Positions 22,394-28,998 of a stretch of 41,336 nucleotides of DNA are shown here, one piece after another. The position numbers and the translations under genes are program-made. Source of the DNA: a virus; IMG/VR virus record IMGVR_UViG_3300030102_002950, positions 1 to 41,336 of that record; one strand, given 5' to 3'. The stretch's first letter is position 1. Each line of letters starts with the position of its first letter. The notes beneath the pieces are model-generated. The model was not told the origin of the DNA, did not search any database, and worked only from the letters and a program-made list of their open reading frames with translations.

Positions 22394-23902
22394 TCATTTT
22401 AGTACATTTAATTGTTTAGCGAATAGCTTTACCTCATCAATGTTTGCAAGTCTTGTAATGTTATACTTTCTTACAATATCAAGGCATTCATCTAATGCTT
22501 GACGAGATGTTTCATTTGTAGGTACAACGTACATATCTGAAACCCATAGTCGTTTAGGTTCTTGTCTACCTAGCCACTCAAGTGCAGGTCTGTCAATGAC
22601 ATTACCTCTACCTGAATGATAATTAATGTATGCATCATCTACCCTACGACCATTTCTTGCAATAATACGTAAGTTACCAAAGCGACCCATACCATTGTAC
22701 ATAGCAATAGTCACTGCAGGAACTTCATTCATTATCTCAAGTATGTCATCACCATCAAAGTTCATTGACCCCGAAGCGTCTATGAGAACAGTACCACCAT
22801 AAACTTTAGTCTTTTTGGAAAAGACTTTTTTGTCTACACAATAACGTTGTAAGTTATTAGGTGTTTGTCCGTATTCCTTTGGTGTTTTTACATACCCTTG
22901 ACGTAGCTTGTTAGATAGATTTATTGTACATGGTGGTGTATGTATTTCCATTTCACCCCATACAGGTTTGTGTTTGGAATTGTTCCACTTAACACGTACT
23001 TCTAACTCATCTTTCTTGTTACGTCTTGCTAACTCTTTTATATCTGTAGGTTCAATAAGACCTGCTTCACTGTATGCTTGCTCTTGAGATAATTCAAGCT
23101 CTTCATCTTCAAGCAATTCCTCAAGTTCTTTTTGTGCTTCTGCTTCAAGCATGACCTCATCTTCTTCGGGTCTTTGATTGAACATATTGAGTATGTCAGA
23201 TAGTTCTTCTGCATATTTCTTTACACGTTGGAATGATATCTTACTAGCAAGTTTTCTTGAGTTAGTACTAATAGTTACCATACGTTCATGAAAGTATTTA
23301 GTAGTTTCAATCACATACTCAAGGTCTTTTATCCTACCCATTGTAAGAGTGTTGCTATCTATGTAATCATACATAGCTTCAAGAGTTGCTTCTAACTCAT
23401 GACTAACACTATTAGAACTTTGCCTATTCATTTTTGCACTATTTGAGTTAGGGTGGTAATACGCATTTGCATGAAACCAACTTCTTACATGGTCACGATA
23501 GAATGTACCTGCAAGACACCACTTGAGTATCTCTGCAATACTACCTTTCTCAACAAGTTGTCTTGTAAACATCTTCACATCTTCAAGACATCTGTGTGGC
23601 TCGTCCATTGGTATAAAATTTCTTGTGAGTAAAGTGTTGATACGTATTTCTTCAAGCAGGTGTACTGCTTCTTCCACAACGTTTTTCTTCAATTTACCCA
23701 TAGACTTTGGTGACCATTTAACATGACCAAGCTCGTGTCTACGAACCATACGACCATGTTGTAACCCACAACGTGGGCAATCATCATCTAAGGGAACATA
23801 CATCTTACGATTAGTCATGTCTGTACGAGGGCGTTCAGTGTCCTCAAAGACTTCCCAATCGTGTTCACCCGTTACAATTTCGGGAAAAGGTCTATGTTTC
23901 AT
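22394..23902 (-). CDS. VWA-domain protein with HExxH motif (CobT/DUF2201-like)
   Basis: This 502-aa protein is the partner of the AAA ATPase at 24290. The N-terminus holds CPRCGLQHG (42-50) and HELGH (56-60), followed by EEAVHLLEEIRINTLL, the helix that supplies the third ligand in related metallopeptidase-like domains. The middle (about 190-300) is helical and acidic. A C-terminal VWA domain begins with VLIDASGSM (DASGS at 375-379), the metal-binding MIDAS motif. CobT, ViaA and DUF2201 proteins pair with MoxR-type ATPases to remodel protein complexes or insert metals. The target here is unknown. A TAATG overlap links it to the gene upstream. Confidence 0.8.
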   Translation of the reverse strand: MKHRPFPEIVTGEHDWEVFEDTERPRTDMTNRKMYVPLDDDCPRCGLQHGRMVRRHELGHVKWSPKSMGKLKKNVVEEAVHLLEEIRINTLLTRNFIPMDEPHRCLEDVKMFTRQLVEKGSIAEILKWCLAGTFYRDHVRSWFHANAYYHPNSNSAKMNRQSSNSVSHELEATLEAMYDYIDSNTLTMGRIKDLEYVIETTKYFHERMVTISTNSRKLASKISFQRVKKYAEELSDILNMFNQRPEEDEVMLEAEAQKELEELLEDEELELSQEQAYSEAGLIEPTDIKELARRNKKDELEVRVKWNNSKHKPVWGEMEIHTPPCTINLSNKLRQGYVKTPKEYGQTPNNLQRYCVDKKVFSKKTKVYGGTVLIDASGSMNFDGDDILEIMNEVPAVTIAMYNGMGRFGNLRIIARNGRRVDDAYINYHSGRGNVIDRPALEWLGRQEPKRLWVSDMYVVPTNETSRQALDECLDIVRKYNITRLANIDEVKLFAKQLNVLK

Positions 23903-24042
23903 TATTTTTCCTTCCTGTTAAGCAATTTTTTCATTTCACGTTTCATATCGTAAAAATTAATCATAGCTCTATCATATCTCCACAGAGTGTGTCTTATTTG
24001 TTCATCTGTAGACATGTCTTTATAGCCATTGCTCATAGACAT
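23902..24042 (-). CDS. Hypothetical small protein (46 aa)
   Basis: MSMSNGYKDMSTDEQIRHTL opens a helical, basic protein ending MKKLLNRKEK. It is joined by TAATG overlaps to the gene before and to the VWA gene after, so it belongs to the ATPase-VWA operon and may be a small adaptor. No family is recognised. Confidence 0.6.
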   Translation of the reverse strand: MSMSNGYKDMSTDEQIRHTLWRYDRAMINFYDMKREMKKLLNRKEK

Positions 24043-24290
24043 TATTCTTCCTCTGCAATTTCGCCATGATATAAGCTAACATGTCCGTCATCACCGAACT
24101 CAATACCCTCAAATACAACTGTGACTTCAACACCTGTGTCAAGTCCAATCGTTTGTGGCTTTTGTCCAATTTCAAAGTCAGCGTTACAAAATGCCTCTGT
24201 TACTTCTGCTTTTGTAAGTATGCGTGGAGACGATATAGACCAATGTCTTTCGTCCATTGACGCTTCACCTACATGATATAGGTATGACAT
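24042..24290 (-). CDS. Hypothetical protein between the AAA ATPase and VWA genes (82 aa)
   Basis: A beta-rich acidic protein (SYLYHVGEASMDERHWSISS; GVEVTVVFEGIEFGDDGHVS; ending EIAEEE). TAATG overlaps bind it to the ATPase gene and to the 46-aa gene. Its placement suggests a component or substrate adaptor of the ATPase-VWA system; no family recognised. Confidence 0.6.
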   Translation of the reverse strand: MSYLYHVGEASMDERHWSISSPRILTKAEVTEAFCNADFEIGQKPQTIGLDTGVEVTVVFEGIEFGDDGHVSLYHGEIAEEE

Positions 24291-25015
24291 TATCCCTCTA
24301 CTTTCGCAAGTTTGATAGCGTCAAGTAACTCCTCACTTCTATCACCGAATACGAGTTGCCCTGCAACGTCCATATCCACACCTTGCTCATCTGTAAGTCT
24401 GAAAAATTCTTCCCATTTACGAACAGAGATACGTTCATACTCCTCATTATTTGTAGCAGTATCGTTTATGACTTCACGCCATTCCTCAGGAAACTTCTCA
24501 AGTGCTTTTGGATTGATACTATCCATGTATATAGATACAGGAAATCTATCCTTGACTGCTTGAGGTAAGCTTTCGGGGTCAGCATTACTTGTTGCAACTA
24601 CTTGAAATCCTTCTGCAGGGTGTACAGTTTCTTTCTCTCGGTTGTTGAGAGTGATACCTGCAATGGATTTGTCATCAAGTATTGCATGCAAGAATGTCAT
24701 AGCGTCAGGTGAAGCGTGGTCAATCTCATTGATGATTAACCTACCACCATTACGCCATGCTTGAATTGCTATGCCGTCATGCCATTCAAACTGCTGATTA
24801 TCACCTATTTGATAAAAGCCCATTAAGTCTGCACTTGAACTTTCTTCAGTCATGGTGATTTGGAATACGTTTGGTTCTCCATTGATGTTCAATGGTGTAT
24901 TCTCTTTCACAGCAGTGTGTGTCTTACCCGTACCTGGAGGTCCGTATAAGAGTACTCTGTTTGAATTACCGATTACGAGTTGGGCTAAATCCCAACATGT
25001 TTGTTTTTTACTCAT
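24290..25015 (-). CDS. MoxR/CobS-type AAA+ ATPase
   Basis: This 241-aa protein has Walker A GPPGTGKT (25-32), a Walker B-like RLIINEID (92-99), sensor ATSNADP (141-147) and an arginine-finger-like KDRF (155-158). The Walker B Asp is replaced by Asn (NEID), so catalytic details may differ, though Glu97 is kept. MoxR-type ATPases form rings that act with a VWA protein on a target complex. The VWA gene lies two genes downstream in the same operon. The start follows GGATAAATACAT. Confidence 0.85.
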   Translation of the reverse strand: MSKKQTCWDLAQLVIGNSNRVLLYGPPGTGKTHTAVKENTPLNINGEPNVFQITMTEESSSADLMGFYQIGDNQQFEWHDGIAIQAWRNGGRLIINEIDHASPDAMTFLHAILDDKSIAGITLNNREKETVHPAEGFQVVATSNADPESLPQAVKDRFPVSIYMDSINPKALEKFPEEWREVINDTATNNEEYERISVRKWEEFFRLTDEQGVDMDVAGQLVFGDRSEELLDAIKLAKVEG

Positions 25016-25321: not shown

Positions 25322-25597
25322 CTATCCTTTCTTATAGACAGCTTGTAACACACAAAGAAGTCTGCTTGTTTATGGTATACCTAGACTATTATGTGCTACA
25401 AGCTACCTACAGACTTTGCTTTTCATCAACACTCTCATAAAATGTATCTTCTCGTCCTACATAGATAGCTTAGTGCCTACCATGTGTGGTATATATACGT
25501 ACTAACAGGGAAATTAGATACACACAATAGACACTAAGCTATGCACACACCCCCTTGTATCACAGTACAAGGTTATGGAGAGTGTATGCAATAGCTT
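25322..25597 (-). other. Intergenic region dense in inverted repeats, candidate structured RNA or control site
   Basis: No credible gene fills these 276 bases. Three paired systems are visible: AAGTCTG/CAGACTT (25358-25364, 25410-25416) enclosing GCTTGT/ACAAGC (25364-25369, 25398-25403); an 11-bp perfect pair ATAGCTTAGTG/CACTAAGCTAT (25465-25475, 25532-25542) enclosing TGTGTG/CACACA (25483-25488, 25521-25526); and the hairpin CCTTGTA/TACAAGG (25553-25572). It precedes the gene at 25312 and the ATPase operon. Leader RNA, operator cluster or replication site are all possible. Confidence 0.45.
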
Positions 25598-25842: not shown

Positions 25843-25885
25843 ATATAATTTAATCCCCTTAATAAATTAAGGGGTTAAATTATAT
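25843..25885 (-). repeat. Intercistronic hairpin family, copy 1
   Basis: Forward arms ATATAATTTAA (25843-25853) with TTAAATTATAT (25875-25885), and CCCCTTAAT (25855-25863) with ATTAAGGGG (25866-25874); T54 is bulged between the two helices. On the leftward transcript the 5' base touches the stop codon of the gene at 25885-26058 and the 3' base precedes the ribosome site of the 76-aa gene. Confidence 0.8.
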
Positions 25886-26058
25886 TATTCTTTATCCCTG
25901 AAGAAGTCACGCATGAAATCTTCGCTTAGTCTTGCACGTTTATCTTCTTCTGCACGATTGTTCTTTATCTCGTTGAACATGTACATAATGGTGAATACAG
26001 TCATACCCACCAATACACCGAACATAAAGGTTATAAATAATCCTTGCACACTAAACAT
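25885..26058 (-). CDS. Small membrane protein (57 aa)
   Basis: MFSVQGLFITFMFGVLVGMT and VFTIMYMF form one long membrane helix (about 5-28), followed by a charged helical tail (EIKNNRAEEDKRARLSEDF). The topology is typical of small phage inner-membrane proteins. It overlaps the upstream gene by 8 bases. Its stop lies at the foot of hairpin copy 1. No family recognised. Confidence 0.55.
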   Translation of the reverse strand: MFSVQGLFITFMFGVLVGMTVFTIMYMFNEIKNNRAEEDKRARLSEDFMRDFFRDKE

Positions 26059-26239
26059 TGGTATTTATTTCTTTCATAGTATCTATTGCAAACTGCAAAC
26101 CTGCATAAAAACCTATTTCCCAACTTTCATTATCAGTTTCCTGTGCATTGGATATAGATTTCTGTTCAGGATATTGCTCTTTCCAATATTTTTCACTATC
26201 GTTTTGTCTATCTTCAAGTAGCTTTATAAGTTCTTCCAT
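26051..26239 (-). CDS. Hypothetical acidic protein (62 aa)
   Basis: ATG at 26239 follows AAAAGGAGCTTACATA and shares a base with the upstream stop. The product starts MEELIKLLEDRQNDSEKYWK and ends with a helix, EIGFYAGLQFAIDTMKEINT. Soluble and acidic; no family recognised. Confidence 0.6.
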   Translation of the reverse strand: MEELIKLLEDRQNDSEKYWKEQYPEQKSISNAQETDNESWEIGFYAGLQFAIDTMKEINTNV

Positions 26240-26658
26240 TATGTAAGCTCCTTTTGCCAATCGTATTCTAATGTTTCATAAGACCACGAATTAATATCTA
26301 CAAGTAATGTACCCCAATCATCTGCGACAATCGGCATGTCATTACCCTTCGGCAACTCGTATTTAAACTTAAGCATGTCAAAGTTGAATACGCTTGGTTC
26401 TAATCCGTTTTTAATACAAGCAACAAGTAATTTAGGAAACACACGTTCAACTTCTGTACGCATATCTACTTCCCAATTAGCGTCACCTGTATATTCTTTG
26501 TAATGTTGTGCTACTTCTTGCACAACGTTTTTGATTTCATACCCACCCCAGTGTGTATAGATGACAGGACTGTAGTTATACAAATCCTCACCACTATGGT
26601 TCACTACGTGTGTAAGGTCACGTTTCTGATATAACAGAATATTGGCTCTTTCGCCCAT
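26239..26658 (-). CDS. Hypothetical protein (139 aa)
   Basis: A mixed alpha/beta acidic protein: ILLYQKRDLTHVVNHSGEDL, EIKNVVQEVAQHYKEYTGD, VERVFPKLLVACIKNGLEPS, then an aromatic C-terminus (DINSWSYETLEYDWQKELT). No catalytic motif stands out. The ribosome site (GTGAG) is weak. An inverted repeat (26683-26706) lies just upstream. Confidence 0.55.
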   Translation of the reverse strand: MGERANILLYQKRDLTHVVNHSGEDLYNYSPVIYTHWGGYEIKNVVQEVAQHYKEYTGDANWEVDMRTEVERVFPKLLVACIKNGLEPSVFNFDMLKFKYELPKGNDMPIVADDWGTLLVDINSWSYETLEYDWQKELT

Positions 26659-26682
26659 TTTGTTTTCTCACTTTCCGTGTAT

Positions 26683-26706
26683 GTGGTGCATCAGGTGACA
26701 CACCAC
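26683..26706 (-). repeat. Intercistronic hairpin GTGGTG/CACCAC
   Basis: A 6-bp GC-rich perfect pair with a 12-base loop sits between the stop at 26713 and the start at 26658. It is unrelated in sequence to the CCCC/GGGG family but occupies the same kind of position. Confidence 0.5.
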
Positions 26707-26712
26707 TGTACA

Positions 26713-26886
26713 CTAATCTATATACAAACGTTTCTTGAACTCGTCAAGGTCGTATGTACGTTTCTTTTGTTTATGTATTCGTTTTACTTCCTCATACAAA
26801 TCACTGCGATAATTAAATATCTCTTTAGGAAACGTAAAGTCGTATCCTGCGTGATAGCGTGGGGAAGTTTTGTCGTGTAATGTCAT
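26713..26886 (-). CDS. Hypothetical basic protein (57 aa)
   Basis: ATG at 26886 follows AAAAGGAACTT and overlaps the upstream stop by ATGA. The product (MTLHDKTSPRYHAGYDFTFP, then KEIFNYRSDLYEEVKRIHKQ) is helical and basic toward the end. No family recognised. Confidence 0.6.
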   Translation of the reverse strand: MTLHDKTSPRYHAGYDFTFPKEIFNYRSDLYEEVKRIHKQKKRTYDLDEFKKRLYID

Positions 26887-27059
26887 AAGTTCCTTTTCGT
26901 ACTTAACTTTTTTACTGTTTGATAATTACATGAAAAGCACATCACCATTACGTGTACAGTACTTTTAACATTGCTATGTATGCCTACACGTGCATAATTG
27001 TTTTGTCTACAATTATCGCATAACATGTCATTATCATTTCCACTTACACGGACACTCAT
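26883..27059 (-). CDS. Small zinc-ribbon-like protein (58 aa)
   Basis: ATG at 27059 follows TTGGAGATTTT. Two Cys pairs, CDNC (14-17) and CFSC (41-44), 23 residues apart, make a zinc ribbon likely; the C-terminus is basic (VKKLSTKRNL). Such proteins bind nucleic acids or RNA polymerase. Hairpin copy 2 lies just upstream. Confidence 0.65.
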   Translation of the reverse strand: MSVRVSGNDNDMLCDNCRQNNYARVGIHSNVKSTVHVMVMCFSCNYQTVKKLSTKRNL

Positions 27060-27072
27060 AAAATCTCCAATC

Positions 27073-27115
27073 TAATTAATTAAGCCCCTTAATAAATTAA
27101 GGGGTTAATTAATTA
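27073..27115 (-). repeat. Intercistronic hairpin family, copy 2
   Basis: Forward arms TAATTAATTAA (27073-27083) with TTAATTAATTA (27105-27115) and CCCCTTAAT (27085-27093) with ATTAAGGGG (27096-27104); G84 is bulged. On the leftward transcript the stop codon of the gene at 27105-27293 lies inside the 5' arm, and AGATTGGAG follows the 3' arm as the next ribosome site. Confidence 0.8.
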
Positions 27116-27293
27116 ATGTTCCTGCTCCTAACAAATCCTCGCCATTGTAAATGTCGGTAGCATTTTTGAATACAAGCCACGCACCAAACAACTCGTCTTT
27201 TACGCCCTCGTTAAAGCATTCATAGTCGCAATACCAAAAGCCATTATGCTTTATGTAAGGTATTTCTAAATTAATTAAACACATACAACACAT
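27105..27293 (-). CDS. Small Cys-rich protein, possible zinc binder (62 aa)
   Basis: ATG at 27293 follows AAAGGAAAACAT. The N-terminus MCCMCLINLE and YCDYECFNEG (about 21-30) supply five Cys in a zinc-finger-like spacing. The remainder is acidic (ELFGAWLVFKNATDIYNGED). Its stop lies within hairpin copy 2. Confidence 0.6.
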   Translation of the reverse strand: MCCMCLINLEIPYIKHNGFWYCDYECFNEGVKDELFGAWLVFKNATDIYNGEDLLGAGTLIN

Positions 27294-27443
27294 ATGTTTT
27301 CCTTTCTATATATACTTCTTGGGCAAGTTCTTTTATGCCCAAAGTAAGAATAACATTTATTACATACTCTCATATTTTTACCTTTTTTTCCTTTTCTTTA
27401 GAACGGATATTTACAGTATAATATACAGTTAATGTATATCCTA

Positions 27444-27465
27444 CACCCACCATCTCAGGTGGGTG
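27444..27465 (-). terminator. GC-rich hairpin after the 27477-27809 gene
   Basis: CACCCACC (27444-27451) and GGTGGGTG (27458-27465) pair perfectly over 8 bp around a 6-base loop, 11 bases after the stop of the leftward gene. No U-run follows, so termination is plausible but processing is possible. A second pair, TTGGGCA/TGCCCAA, lies further downstream at about 27325-27347. Confidence 0.5.
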
Positions 27466-27476
27466 CGAGATAAACA

Positions 27477-27809
27477 CTAGCTTGTAGCTTTAGCTAACTC
27501 TTTTTTCTTTGCCCATGCTCTTTTGCCACGTTCTGAACGGATTTTGGTTAATCCCTCAGGTGTGATGTGCTTGAGTGTCACATCTGCACCCAAGACTTTG
27601 ACCATGTCCTGTGCGTCTGCGTAGTTTTTAGTCATTGGGCTAACAGTGTTCTCACTTGTAAGCTCGCTTGCATTATTCACTTGCTCGCTTGAAACAAAGT
27701 ATTCTCTAGTCTCGTTAACCTTAACTATGAAATAGTTAGGGATTGGTGCATTCTTCTCATCACGCACGTTATACACTGTCACATTGGCGTTAGCCACTAA
27801 TTTACTCAT
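27477..27809 (-). CDS. Hypothetical protein (110 aa)
   Basis: ATG at 27809 opens MSKLVANANVTVYNVRDEKN. Longer in-frame readings (to 27893) run into a GC-richer, hairpin-containing stretch with an odd His/Cys composition, so they are unlikely. The middle is beta-rich (YFIVKVNETREYFVSSEQV). The end is basic (IRSERGKRAWAKKKELAKA), which could bind nucleic acid. No family recognised; the ribosome site is weak. Confidence 0.55.
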   Translation of the reverse strand: MSKLVANANVTVYNVRDEKNAPIPNYFIVKVNETREYFVSSEQVNNASELTSENTVSPMTKNYADAQDMVKVLGADVTLKHITPEGLTKIRSERGKRAWAKKKELAKATS

Positions 27810-27953
27810 ATTTTTTCTCATTTCTCGTATGTGTGTACACTTGGACACACCCCACATACATATAGGCATGTCCACCTGCACACGCAGGTACACGTAGCTG
27901 ACACGTGTTTAAGCTCCACCTTTACGGCTCATGCTTTGTTTTTTCATCAGCAA
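27810..27953 (-). other. Leader of the 27477-27809 gene with a small hairpin and a doubtful 12-aa frame
   Basis: ACCTGC/GCAGGT (27874-27889) forms a perfect 6-bp stem with an ACAC loop. A tiny frame at 27909-27947 (MKKQSMSRKGGA) lies between hairpin copy 3 and this leader but lacks a clear ribosome site, so I do not call it a gene. Confidence 0.35.
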
Positions 27954-27997
27954 TAGGGATTTAATCCCCTTAACAAGTTAAGGGGTTAAATACCCTA
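27954..27997 (-). repeat. Intercistronic hairpin family, copy 3
   Basis: Outer helix TAGGG/CCCTA, then ATTTAA/TTAAAT, then CCCCTTAAC/GTTAAGGGG. A one-base bulge (A92) lies between the first two and another (T65) between the second and third: about 20 pairs. The TAG stop of the 51-aa gene (27995-27997) forms the foot of the outer helix. Confidence 0.85.
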
Positions 27998-28150
27998 AAT
28001 ATCGTTCAAGCCAACTCCAAGCCCCTCAATCTCATCAAGCAACTGCTTATCAATTAAGTATCTATAAAGTTGTTCTTGGCTATCTTTTCTGCTCGTAGCA
28101 CAACTAAGGTTATTCAATATATTAATTACTTCTATTAACAATTCTTGCAT
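27995..28150 (-). CDS. Hypothetical small protein (51 aa)
   Basis: ATG at 28150 follows AGATTGGAGTGAAA. The product (MQELLIEVINILNNLSCATS, RKDSQEQLYRYLIDKQLLDE, ending LNDI) is an amphipathic helical protein. It lies between hairpin copies 4 (upstream) and 3 (downstream). No family recognised. Confidence 0.6.
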   Translation of the reverse strand: MQELLIEVINILNNLSCATSRKDSQEQLYRYLIDKQLLDEIEGLGVGLNDI

Positions 28151-28165
28151 TTTCACTCCAATCTA

Positions 28166-28208
28166 TAGGTATTTAATCCCCATACTCTGTATGGGGTTAA
28201 ATATCCTA
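28166..28208 (-). repeat. Intercistronic hairpin family, copy 4
   Basis: Outer helix TAGG/CCTA, middle TATTTAA/TTAAATA, inner CCCCATAC/GTATGGGG with loop TCT. T204 and T77 are the two bulges. The inner helix differs from copies 1-3 and 5 at both sides of the same pairs, so pairing is kept. The TAG stop of the 43-aa gene is the foot of the outer helix. Confidence 0.85.
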
Positions 28209-28337
28209 AATATTTCGTTGAGCGAACAAAAACTCATCATTCGCCAAATCAATGTCCACCTCGCAGTGTATGCACGCAAAACTTTGATAGCTTGCACATA
28301 TGCATGAGTTCATTGGGTCTTTGTAACCGAAAGTCAT
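28206..28337 (-). CDS. Small Cys-containing protein (43 aa)
   Basis: ATG at 28337 follows AAAAGGAGCAAAA. MTFGYKDPMNSCICASYQSF and ACIHCEVDIDLANDEF give Cys12, 14, 22 and 25, a probable zinc site. The end (FAQRNI) runs into hairpin copy 4. It is the first gene of the leftward block that I can support. Confidence 0.6.
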   Translation of the reverse strand: MTFGYKDPMNSCICASYQSFACIHCEVDIDLANDEFLFAQRNI

Positions 28338-28359
28338 TTTTGCTCCTTTTCACACGGAT

Positions 28360-28405
28360 TAATGTATTTAATCCCCTTACTAAAGTAAGGGGTTAAATAC
28401 TATTA
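28360..28405 (-). repeat. Intercistronic hairpin family, copy 5
   Basis: Outer helix TAAT/ATTA, middle GTATTTAA/TTAAATAC, inner CCCCTTAC/GTAAGGGG with loop TAAA; bulges T401 and T72. It lies upstream of the 43-aa gene. No confident gene ends at its foot, unlike copies 1-4. Confidence 0.85.
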
Positions 28406-28998
28406 CCTCTCGGCAATACCCACTACATCTAGTGGTCTCATTGGGAAACACAATATGTTGTGTACTCTATTGTACTCTATTCTTATAGAATAGTCTAAGA
28501 GTTCCTTGCAGTATCAAAGAACTTAAACCTACTACATATGGGGGTGTTTAACTTGCATACCCCTTCATATAGGTGCATACATCTGTGTACACAAGCACAT
28601 GACATATGTGCCTATGCATTATGTGTACGGGCTACCTGCATATGTACGTGTGCATAATGCGTATGACCCACACATGCTAATATGCGTACCCCCACCTGTA
28701 TATATGTAAGTAGAAAGAAATATTCTAGTAAAACATTGTAAAGGTAAGTCAGATAAGGGTTTTTGTACTCCTTTTGAGCGTAGCGGGCTATAGGGGGAGT
28801 GAGGTTTGATTGGAAATTTTGGTTAGTCCTTGAGTACTCAGTTTGTGTTACTGCTGTATAGTTTGACCTATCCTGAGCTTTCTGCACCCCGATTGCAACT
28901 TTACTTGTAACTAATTACTTATTCCCAATGTTTGTAATTTAAAGTATGTTACCATATAATTATCATTACACAAATCTTTACAAAAAAGATAGGAATAT
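28406..28998. promoter_or_regulatory. Divergent intergenic region, about 590 bases, with repeats and dyads
   Basis: It separates the leftward small genes from the rightward terminase and contains no gene I can support. Seen: ACACAA/TTGTGT (28448-28463); the tandem 10-mer TGTACTCTAT (28461-28480); CTATTCT/AGAATAG (28477-28493); GGGGT/ACCCC (28541-28563); GCACAT/ATGTGC (28595-28611); an 11-pair dyad TATGCATTATG with CATAATGCGTA (28613-28663, one G-T); and four TGCATA copies between 28554 and 28657. A promoter for the terminase lies at 28932. A leftward promoter is expected but I could not fix it. Origin, packaging and control roles are all open. Confidence 0.5.
28932..28960 (+). promoter_or_regulatory. 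Sigma-70-type promoter for the terminase/late operon
   Basis: TTGTAA (28932-28937), a 17-base spacer and TATAAT (28955-28960) match the consensus well. Transcription would begin near 28967 and give a leader of about 32 bases with GATAGGAATAT before the terminase ATG. Confidence 0.65.

Follow-up and report, generated by a model that had tools for sequence, protein, structure and literature searches.

The closest described counterparts of the hairpins reported here come from other phages. In bacteriophage T7, the processing signal R1.1 is a 60-nt element with an asymmetric 4/5 internal loop that is cleaved into pieces of 47 and 13 nt (PMC6121014), lengths that imply a cut on the 3' arm. In T4-type phages, repeated intergenic stem-loops known as promoter-early stem-loops (PeSLs) are linked to the shuffling of small genes (as cited in PMC4503421). 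Here, we describe a family of bulged hairpins located between small leftward genes of an uncultured phage, represented by IMG/VR virus record IMGVR_UViG_3300030102_002950. The window, meaning the whole analysed stretch of 41,336 bases (positions 1-41,336 of a record that is possibly a fragment), contains five members of this family, and further members recur in related phages with compensatory changes between their arms.

Five Bulged Hairpins in the Leftward Operon

The leftward operon of small genes, which is presumably early and co-transcribed, starts near 28.4 kb, and a terminase operon runs rightward from 28,999. The initial annotation, which was made from the window alone, had proposed five hairpins between the leftward genes. 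All five were found where they had been placed, in the orientation of those genes and within the first 3 kb of the operon, each supported by folding and by a covariance-model match:

28360-28405, minus strand: H1 (copy 5), in the 5' leader of the operon, with a UAAU/AUUA outer helix, A as both the 5' and the 3' bulge and an 8-bp apical stem; its covariance-model match covers 28356-28409
28166-28208, minus strand: copy 4, with a UAGG/CCUA foot, opening at a UAG stop codon and followed by GGAG
27954-27997, minus strand: H3 (copy 3), with a UAGGG/CCCUA foot opening at a UAG stop codon, ahead of the leader of the conserved gene g1
27073-27115, minus strand: H2 (copy 2), with a UAA stop codon inside the 5' arm and C as the 3' bulge
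25843-25885, minus strand: H5 (copy 1), between g4 and the conserved gene g2, followed by AAAGGAG

Folding reproduced the inner helix and one-base, same-side bulge that had been claimed, giving an 8-bp apical stem and, on the mRNA's 3' side, a single bulged base that is A or C in the transcript and hence T or G in the plus strand (A in all window copies except copy 2, which has C). The opposite one-base bulge and the outer helices of copies 3-5 were also confirmed by folding. Read along the mRNA, the outer helix is followed by the 5'-side bulge (in three of the five), UUUAA-type pairs, the 3'-side bulge and the apical stem, which in the window copies consists of CCCC plus four more pairs closed by a 3-4-nt loop. 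As had been noted, four copies have the stop codon of the preceding gene within the 5' arm or at its foot, and no run of U residues follows the hairpins; H1 has UAAUAG at its foot, without a conserved open reading frame (ORF) upstream. The claim that a ribosome site follows the 3' arm held closely for copies 1, 2, 4 and 5 and failed for copy 3, where the next conserved gene lies about 140 nt further on. When both strands were scanned with the core pattern, 5 exact matches and 15 matches with at most 3 mismatches were obtained, against an expectation of 0.20 from shuffled sequences. A search of the window against Rfam gave no match above the gathering threshold.

Recurrence and Covariation in Related Phages

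The first scan of IMG/VR required an exact TTTAATCCCC...GGGGTTAAA core and returned 36 stretches, of which 34 were kept, with 1-6 copies each; as some contigs yielded two stretches, these represent somewhat fewer than 34 contigs. The single copies in viral matches L007 and L026 look like chance and were rejected. Among 84,980 bacterial and archaeal genomes the pattern occurred in 39 stretches, with one match each and without continuation of the full stem, and these were therefore also attributed to chance; about two thirds of them represent a single sequence from Lactobacillaceae, apparently coding and, by eye, relaxase-like. Literature searches, from whose coverage subscription papers were mostly absent, returned no published description of this hairpin family.

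Together with the window, the 34 stretches yielded 106 copies with flanks, 69 of them distinct. The folds of all 69 contain 18-22 pairs (mean 20), and in 58 both arms are exactly 25 nt long with a loop of 3 or 4, the remainder being one base off in an arm. The usual shape is an 8-bp apical stem, one bulged base on the mRNA 3' side and a lower stem of 11-13 bp. Every one of the 106 copies lies in the sense orientation of the operon, and none was found reversed in the strict form.

Pairing was then assessed in alignment A1, comprising 30 representative sequences, in which invariance of the TTTAATCCCC and GGGGTTAAA positions is partly built in by the scan. Standard pairs occupied 91.4% of the cells, compared with 80.0% after shuffling, and the number of cells changed on both sides was 63, compared with 23.5. 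The covariation score of 0.255 exceeded the shuffled value of 0.075, with none of 500 shuffles scoring as high, and it dropped to 0.159 or less when the partner was slid by one to three columns. For the outer arms, 50 distinct flank pairs folded with their own partners to a summed -987 kcal/mol, against -793 kcal/mol (standard deviation 18) when permuted; this energy was matched in 0 of 20,000 permutations overall and in 22 of 20,000 within the TAGG class, counts that are not strict probabilities, the sequences being related. The stop codon itself joins the covariation (UAGGG/CCCUA, UAAGG/CCUUA and UAAAG/CUUUA), switching together with its partner from UAG/CUA to UAA/UUA.

A covariance model, as suggested in the initial annotation, was built and run against related phages; it revealed many extra copies with strong covariation, and neither an absence of copies nor drift without pairing was seen. 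Copies missed by the pattern were recovered in L102/L103 (terminase 85% identical) and L057 (ATPase 69% identical), and, in one subgroup, ahead of a homologue of the annealing-protein gene. The divergent cores read UUCC/GGAA, CCCU/AGGG, UCUC/GAGA and, in one weak copy, UUUU/AAAA, with retention of a 7-9-bp apical stem, the 3'-side bulge and the lower stem. Because divergent phages keep the geometry of stem and bulge while the sequence changes, recognition by shape appears likelier than recognition by letters.

More distant relatives (L059, L060, L065 and L070 among them) have hairpins of 17-24 bp and other sequence in the gaps between stop codon and ribosome site. Two hairpins of this kind occupy the same position in the window's own operon:

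27430-27479, minus strand: hairpin of different sequence opening at the UAG stop codon of g1, of 6+5+9 bp with two 1x1 mismatches
26677-26713, minus strand: a second hairpin unlike the family in sequence, located between g6 and g7, the latter ending with its stop at 26713; the hairpin arms vary as pairs among relatives (GGTG/CACC, GGAG/CTCC)

Genes within a leftward module abut or overlap, and all window gaps of more than 20 nt between the operon start and g5 (the first 3.4 kb leftward) contain hairpins. In the rightward operon most genes abut, and its few gaps fold weakly or near shuffled values, with no comparable hairpins. The long hairpins of other sequence in the window and in distant relatives thus identify the trait as a long hairpin at module boundaries, of which the CCCC/GGGG family is the repeated version in this lineage.

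Stop Codons and Exchange of Small Genes

The stop codon lies in the foot of the hairpin, or a few bases from it, in 49 of the 60 contexts for which an upstream gene was identified, and the start codon that follows is mostly 8-25 nt past the 3' foot (script counts; genes in relatives were called with a simple script, so that some start positions will be incorrect). In most contigs the interval from H1 to the hairpin preceding g1 holds between one and three small genes, as a rule with a single gene per hairpin; these genes belong to about 16 families that occur in many orders (g8, g10, g14, g15, g16, g19, g22, g23, g30 and several singletons). The window carries two such genes:

28206-28337, minus strand: cassette gene g16, 43 aa, whose TAG stop codon is the foot of the next hairpin
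27995-28150, minus strand: cassette gene g60, 51 aa, found only in the window among the contigs compared

Exchange of cassettes between hairpins, which had been proposed from the window alone, is visible in these gene orders and in comparisons of individual loci. Near-identity between the window and L014 extends across H1 as far as the first start codon; the two then diverge, and they match again from the stop codon opening the next shared hairpin. L028 and L036 have a common hairpin core and share nearly everything after it, while the preceding genes differ; both outer arms differ as well, and remain paired (UAGG.../CCUA in one, UAAAG/CUUUA in the other). This pattern would be expected from selection for pairing after a gene swap, a double exchange being the alternative.

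A minimal hairpin, UAACCC-UUUA-GGGUUA, was observed between g14 and g22 in L024 and L039, where a full one is expected. It opens at the stop codon, is followed by AAAGGAG, and is a candidate shrunken or starting form.

A Proposed Role in Intercistronic RNA Processing

What was observed directly is how the hairpins fold and covary, their regular geometry and sense orientation, where they stand, and the swapping of genes between them. Cleavage, the enzyme and a benefit of cutting are inferred: the hairpins are perhaps intercistronic RNA-processing signals of the polycistronic leftward operon, cut by a host RNase III-type enzyme, a reading that we favour tentatively and hold at a little under an even chance. 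Each hairpin opens at the stop codon of one module and closes just before the next Shine-Dalgarno sequence. The stem of about 20 bp with its 3'-side bulge would be cut by the host's double-strand-specific RNase on the 3' arm, near the bulge, leaving an upstream message that ends in a hairpin and a downstream message with a short open leader carrying the ribosome site. With the same signal at every module boundary, small genes could be swapped between hairpins with their neighbours undisturbed. No RNase III encoded in the phage record was found.

Like T7-type signals, the hairpins are about two helical turns long, lie in gaps between codirectional genes, and carry, beneath an apical stem of 8-10 bp, one or more unpaired bases on the 3' side. 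The T7 early gaps, folded as a control, gave a related set of hairpins, in which a lower stem is separated from an apical stem of about 9 bp by additional unpaired 3'-side bases; the RNase III sites of this early region are named R0.3, R0.5, R1, R1.1 and R1.3. In the T7 0.4-0.5 gap, a UGA stop codon is paired at the foot of a hairpin with a 9-bp apical stem and a 3-nt 3'-side bulge, followed by a ribosome site. The bulge in the present hairpins is about 11-12 nt from the 3' foot, roughly as far as the R1.1 cut lies from the end of that signal.

Several observations weigh against RNase III-type processing. The bulge is a single base here, whereas T7 has several unpaired bases (a larger asymmetric loop), and the hairpins of 17 bp or more in more distant relatives have no bulge. 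The core sequence in close relatives is more conserved than a purely shape-reading enzyme needs, a point that is tempered because the search pattern itself required the core. Finally, the L102 copy whose stem lacks both G and C folds weakly, at -5.8 kcal/mol, and may have decayed.

Alternative Explanations

The exchange of genes raises an alternative, that the main selected role of the hairpins is recombination punctuation, providing repeated boundaries for the exchange of small modules as proposed for T4-type PeSLs. We consider this unlikely, though deserving of real weight. The many orders of some 16 small gene families between H1 and the pre-g1 hairpin, the loss of window/L014 identity at a start codon with its return at a hairpin's stop codon, and the candidate single-strand annealing protein and exonuclease-like protein encoded by the phage are all in keeping with it. 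However, homology alone leaves unexplained both the compensatory changes from arm to arm and the outer arms of L028 and L036, which differ together where the preceding gene differs. Moreover, in a scan restricted to the sigma-70 consensus, no promoter-like match on the coding (minus) strand coincided with any hairpin, unlike the case of PeSLs.

The position of the stop codon, and its joint change with its partner, would also suit translational coupling, in which the hairpin sets the stop codon beside the next ribosome site so that terminating ribosomes restart or are prevented from doing so. The short distance to the next start codon agrees with this, but H1 is the most uniform copy despite lacking a conserved upstream ORF, which argues against reinitiation as the sole role, and about 140 nt separate the pre-g1 hairpin from the g1 start. 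In addition, ribosomes terminating there would occupy and unwind a large part of the lower stem, which counts against coupling, and we regard this explanation as rather improbable. Much the same low weight is given to translation-gated punctuation: as the lower stem incorporates the stop codon, ribosomes ending the upstream gene would open the hairpin and so decide whether the message is cut or passed on. If this were true, a hairpin and its gene would form an exchangeable cassette, and a gene slotted in would at once have its own message, an RNA-level counterpart of integron arrays.

A role in binding or stability seems more doubtful still; here the stems would shield the ends of messages against exonucleases, or the bulged stem would be bound by a protein of phage or host that coordinates the early genes. 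The strict geometry, with a single bulge at a fixed place, and the conserved sequence around the bulge in close relatives would fit such a role, but the bulge-flanking sequence drifts in more distant phages, the loops vary freely and no candidate binding protein was identified. It is very unlikely that the hairpins are terminators or attenuators grading expression along the operon. They do start at stop codons, where terminators usually lie, but a U-tract directly follows the stem in none of 60 distinct copies, no hairpin was listed by the terminator scan, one copy precedes the first gene, and relative L076 has an ordinary U-tract hairpin elsewhere.

Hardly any weight is left for attC-like sites of integron-type cassettes, which a tyrosine recombinase would recognise as single-stranded DNA in folded form. 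In their favour, there is roughly one gene to each hairpin, the stop codon lies at the edge, one base is extrahelical, and GTTAAAT resembles the GTTRRRY core, but the left arm is ATTTAAT, with no matching RYYYAAC core, the core changes freely in relatives, and no integrase domain (PF00589) matched in this record, itself possibly a fragment, for which the reading is largely refuted.

Lineage and Other Features of the Leftward Operon

The terminase shows about 25% identity to those of Streptomyces phages, the capsid protein 33% to those of Mycobacterium phages, and the structural proteins have distant relatives in actinobacterial phages. On these protein similarities, an actinobacterial host is plausible. 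A search of genomes with the AAA ATPase identified no host, and 12 kb of the window, compared with phage records at the nucleotide level, gave no match. The leftward genes include a CobS-like AAA ATPase (P0003), the candidate annealing protein and the exonuclease-like protein. Downstream of the ATPase lies the 502-aa P0002, with a possible VWA-like C-terminal part (by eye), and the two (22394-25015, minus strand) perhaps form a MoxR/CobS-CobT-like pair.

Three further regions contain repeats or structure. The leader ahead of H1 (28417-28560, and the equivalent position in relatives) contains CCACTANATGTAGTGG-type palindromes, which are candidate operators or leader hairpins; their spacing from H1 is fixed, at about -31 and -140 in one subgroup and -70 and -163 in the other. 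Past H3, at 27815-27953, a conserved TGAAAAAACAAAGCATGA(A/G)CC is found with the structured leader of about 140 nt ahead of g1; a very short peptide might be encoded there. Between g2 and g5, the gap (25334-25542) contains two long inverted repeats, one with arms at 25465-25487 and 25520-25542 and the other, at about 25336-25409, in which TAGGTAGCTTGTAGCACA pairs with TGTGTTACAAGCT. The TAGGTAGCTYGTAS motif occurs in 121 copies across 62 fetched loci (which overlap), including relatives at 46% ATPase identity, and the loop in several relatives has a recurring CTCTCGCTYAGA...AAAGTATGATAACGA...GGCATACACGAAG. The region is possibly a structured RNA.

Comparison with Known Systems

The hairpins constitute a real, structurally constrained RNA family without an Rfam match, of a known general kind, that of intercistronic processing or cassette-boundary hairpins; what is new is the lineage and the unusually regular link to the stop codon. 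The initial proposal of a repeated RNA element for processing, stability, reinitiation or cassette recombination is thereby supported, the evidence ranking these functions rather than proving any of them. An uncultured phage lineage thus gains a well-defined, covarying RNA family, T7-style splitting of an operon transcript is suggested outside the T7 group, and a concrete rule is offered for adding or swapping tiny uncharacterized genes with the operon intact. Small early genes, which may act against the host, have their ends marked by the edges of the hairpins, and these edges could be used to locate such genes in metagenomes.

REP/BIME elements are likewise repeated intergenic hairpins, but the present ones have one fixed orientation and are so far confined to one operon of one phage lineage; a REP origin was rejected, no Y1 (RAYT, REP-associated) transposase being present in the record. 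TIGR arrays, described as tandem guide arrays rather than hairpins between genes, were also set aside. Integron attC cassettes resemble this locus in that small genes are strung together, with an imperfect hairpin bearing an extrahelical base behind each of them, and differ in that here no integrase was found, the cores vary and the stop-adjacent pairing is kept in the transcribed orientation. With PeSLs the hairpins share an association with module exchange, although a PeSL combines an early promoter with a terminator stem-loop, and here no promoter-like match or U-tract was found. Compared with the T7 RNase III signals, the present hairpins, whose cleavage we infer, are unrelated in sequence and phage lineage and have a longer lower stem (11-13 bp); as in T7, they form a sequence-related set located in the gaps between genes of a polycistronic transcript, in the present case presumably an early one.

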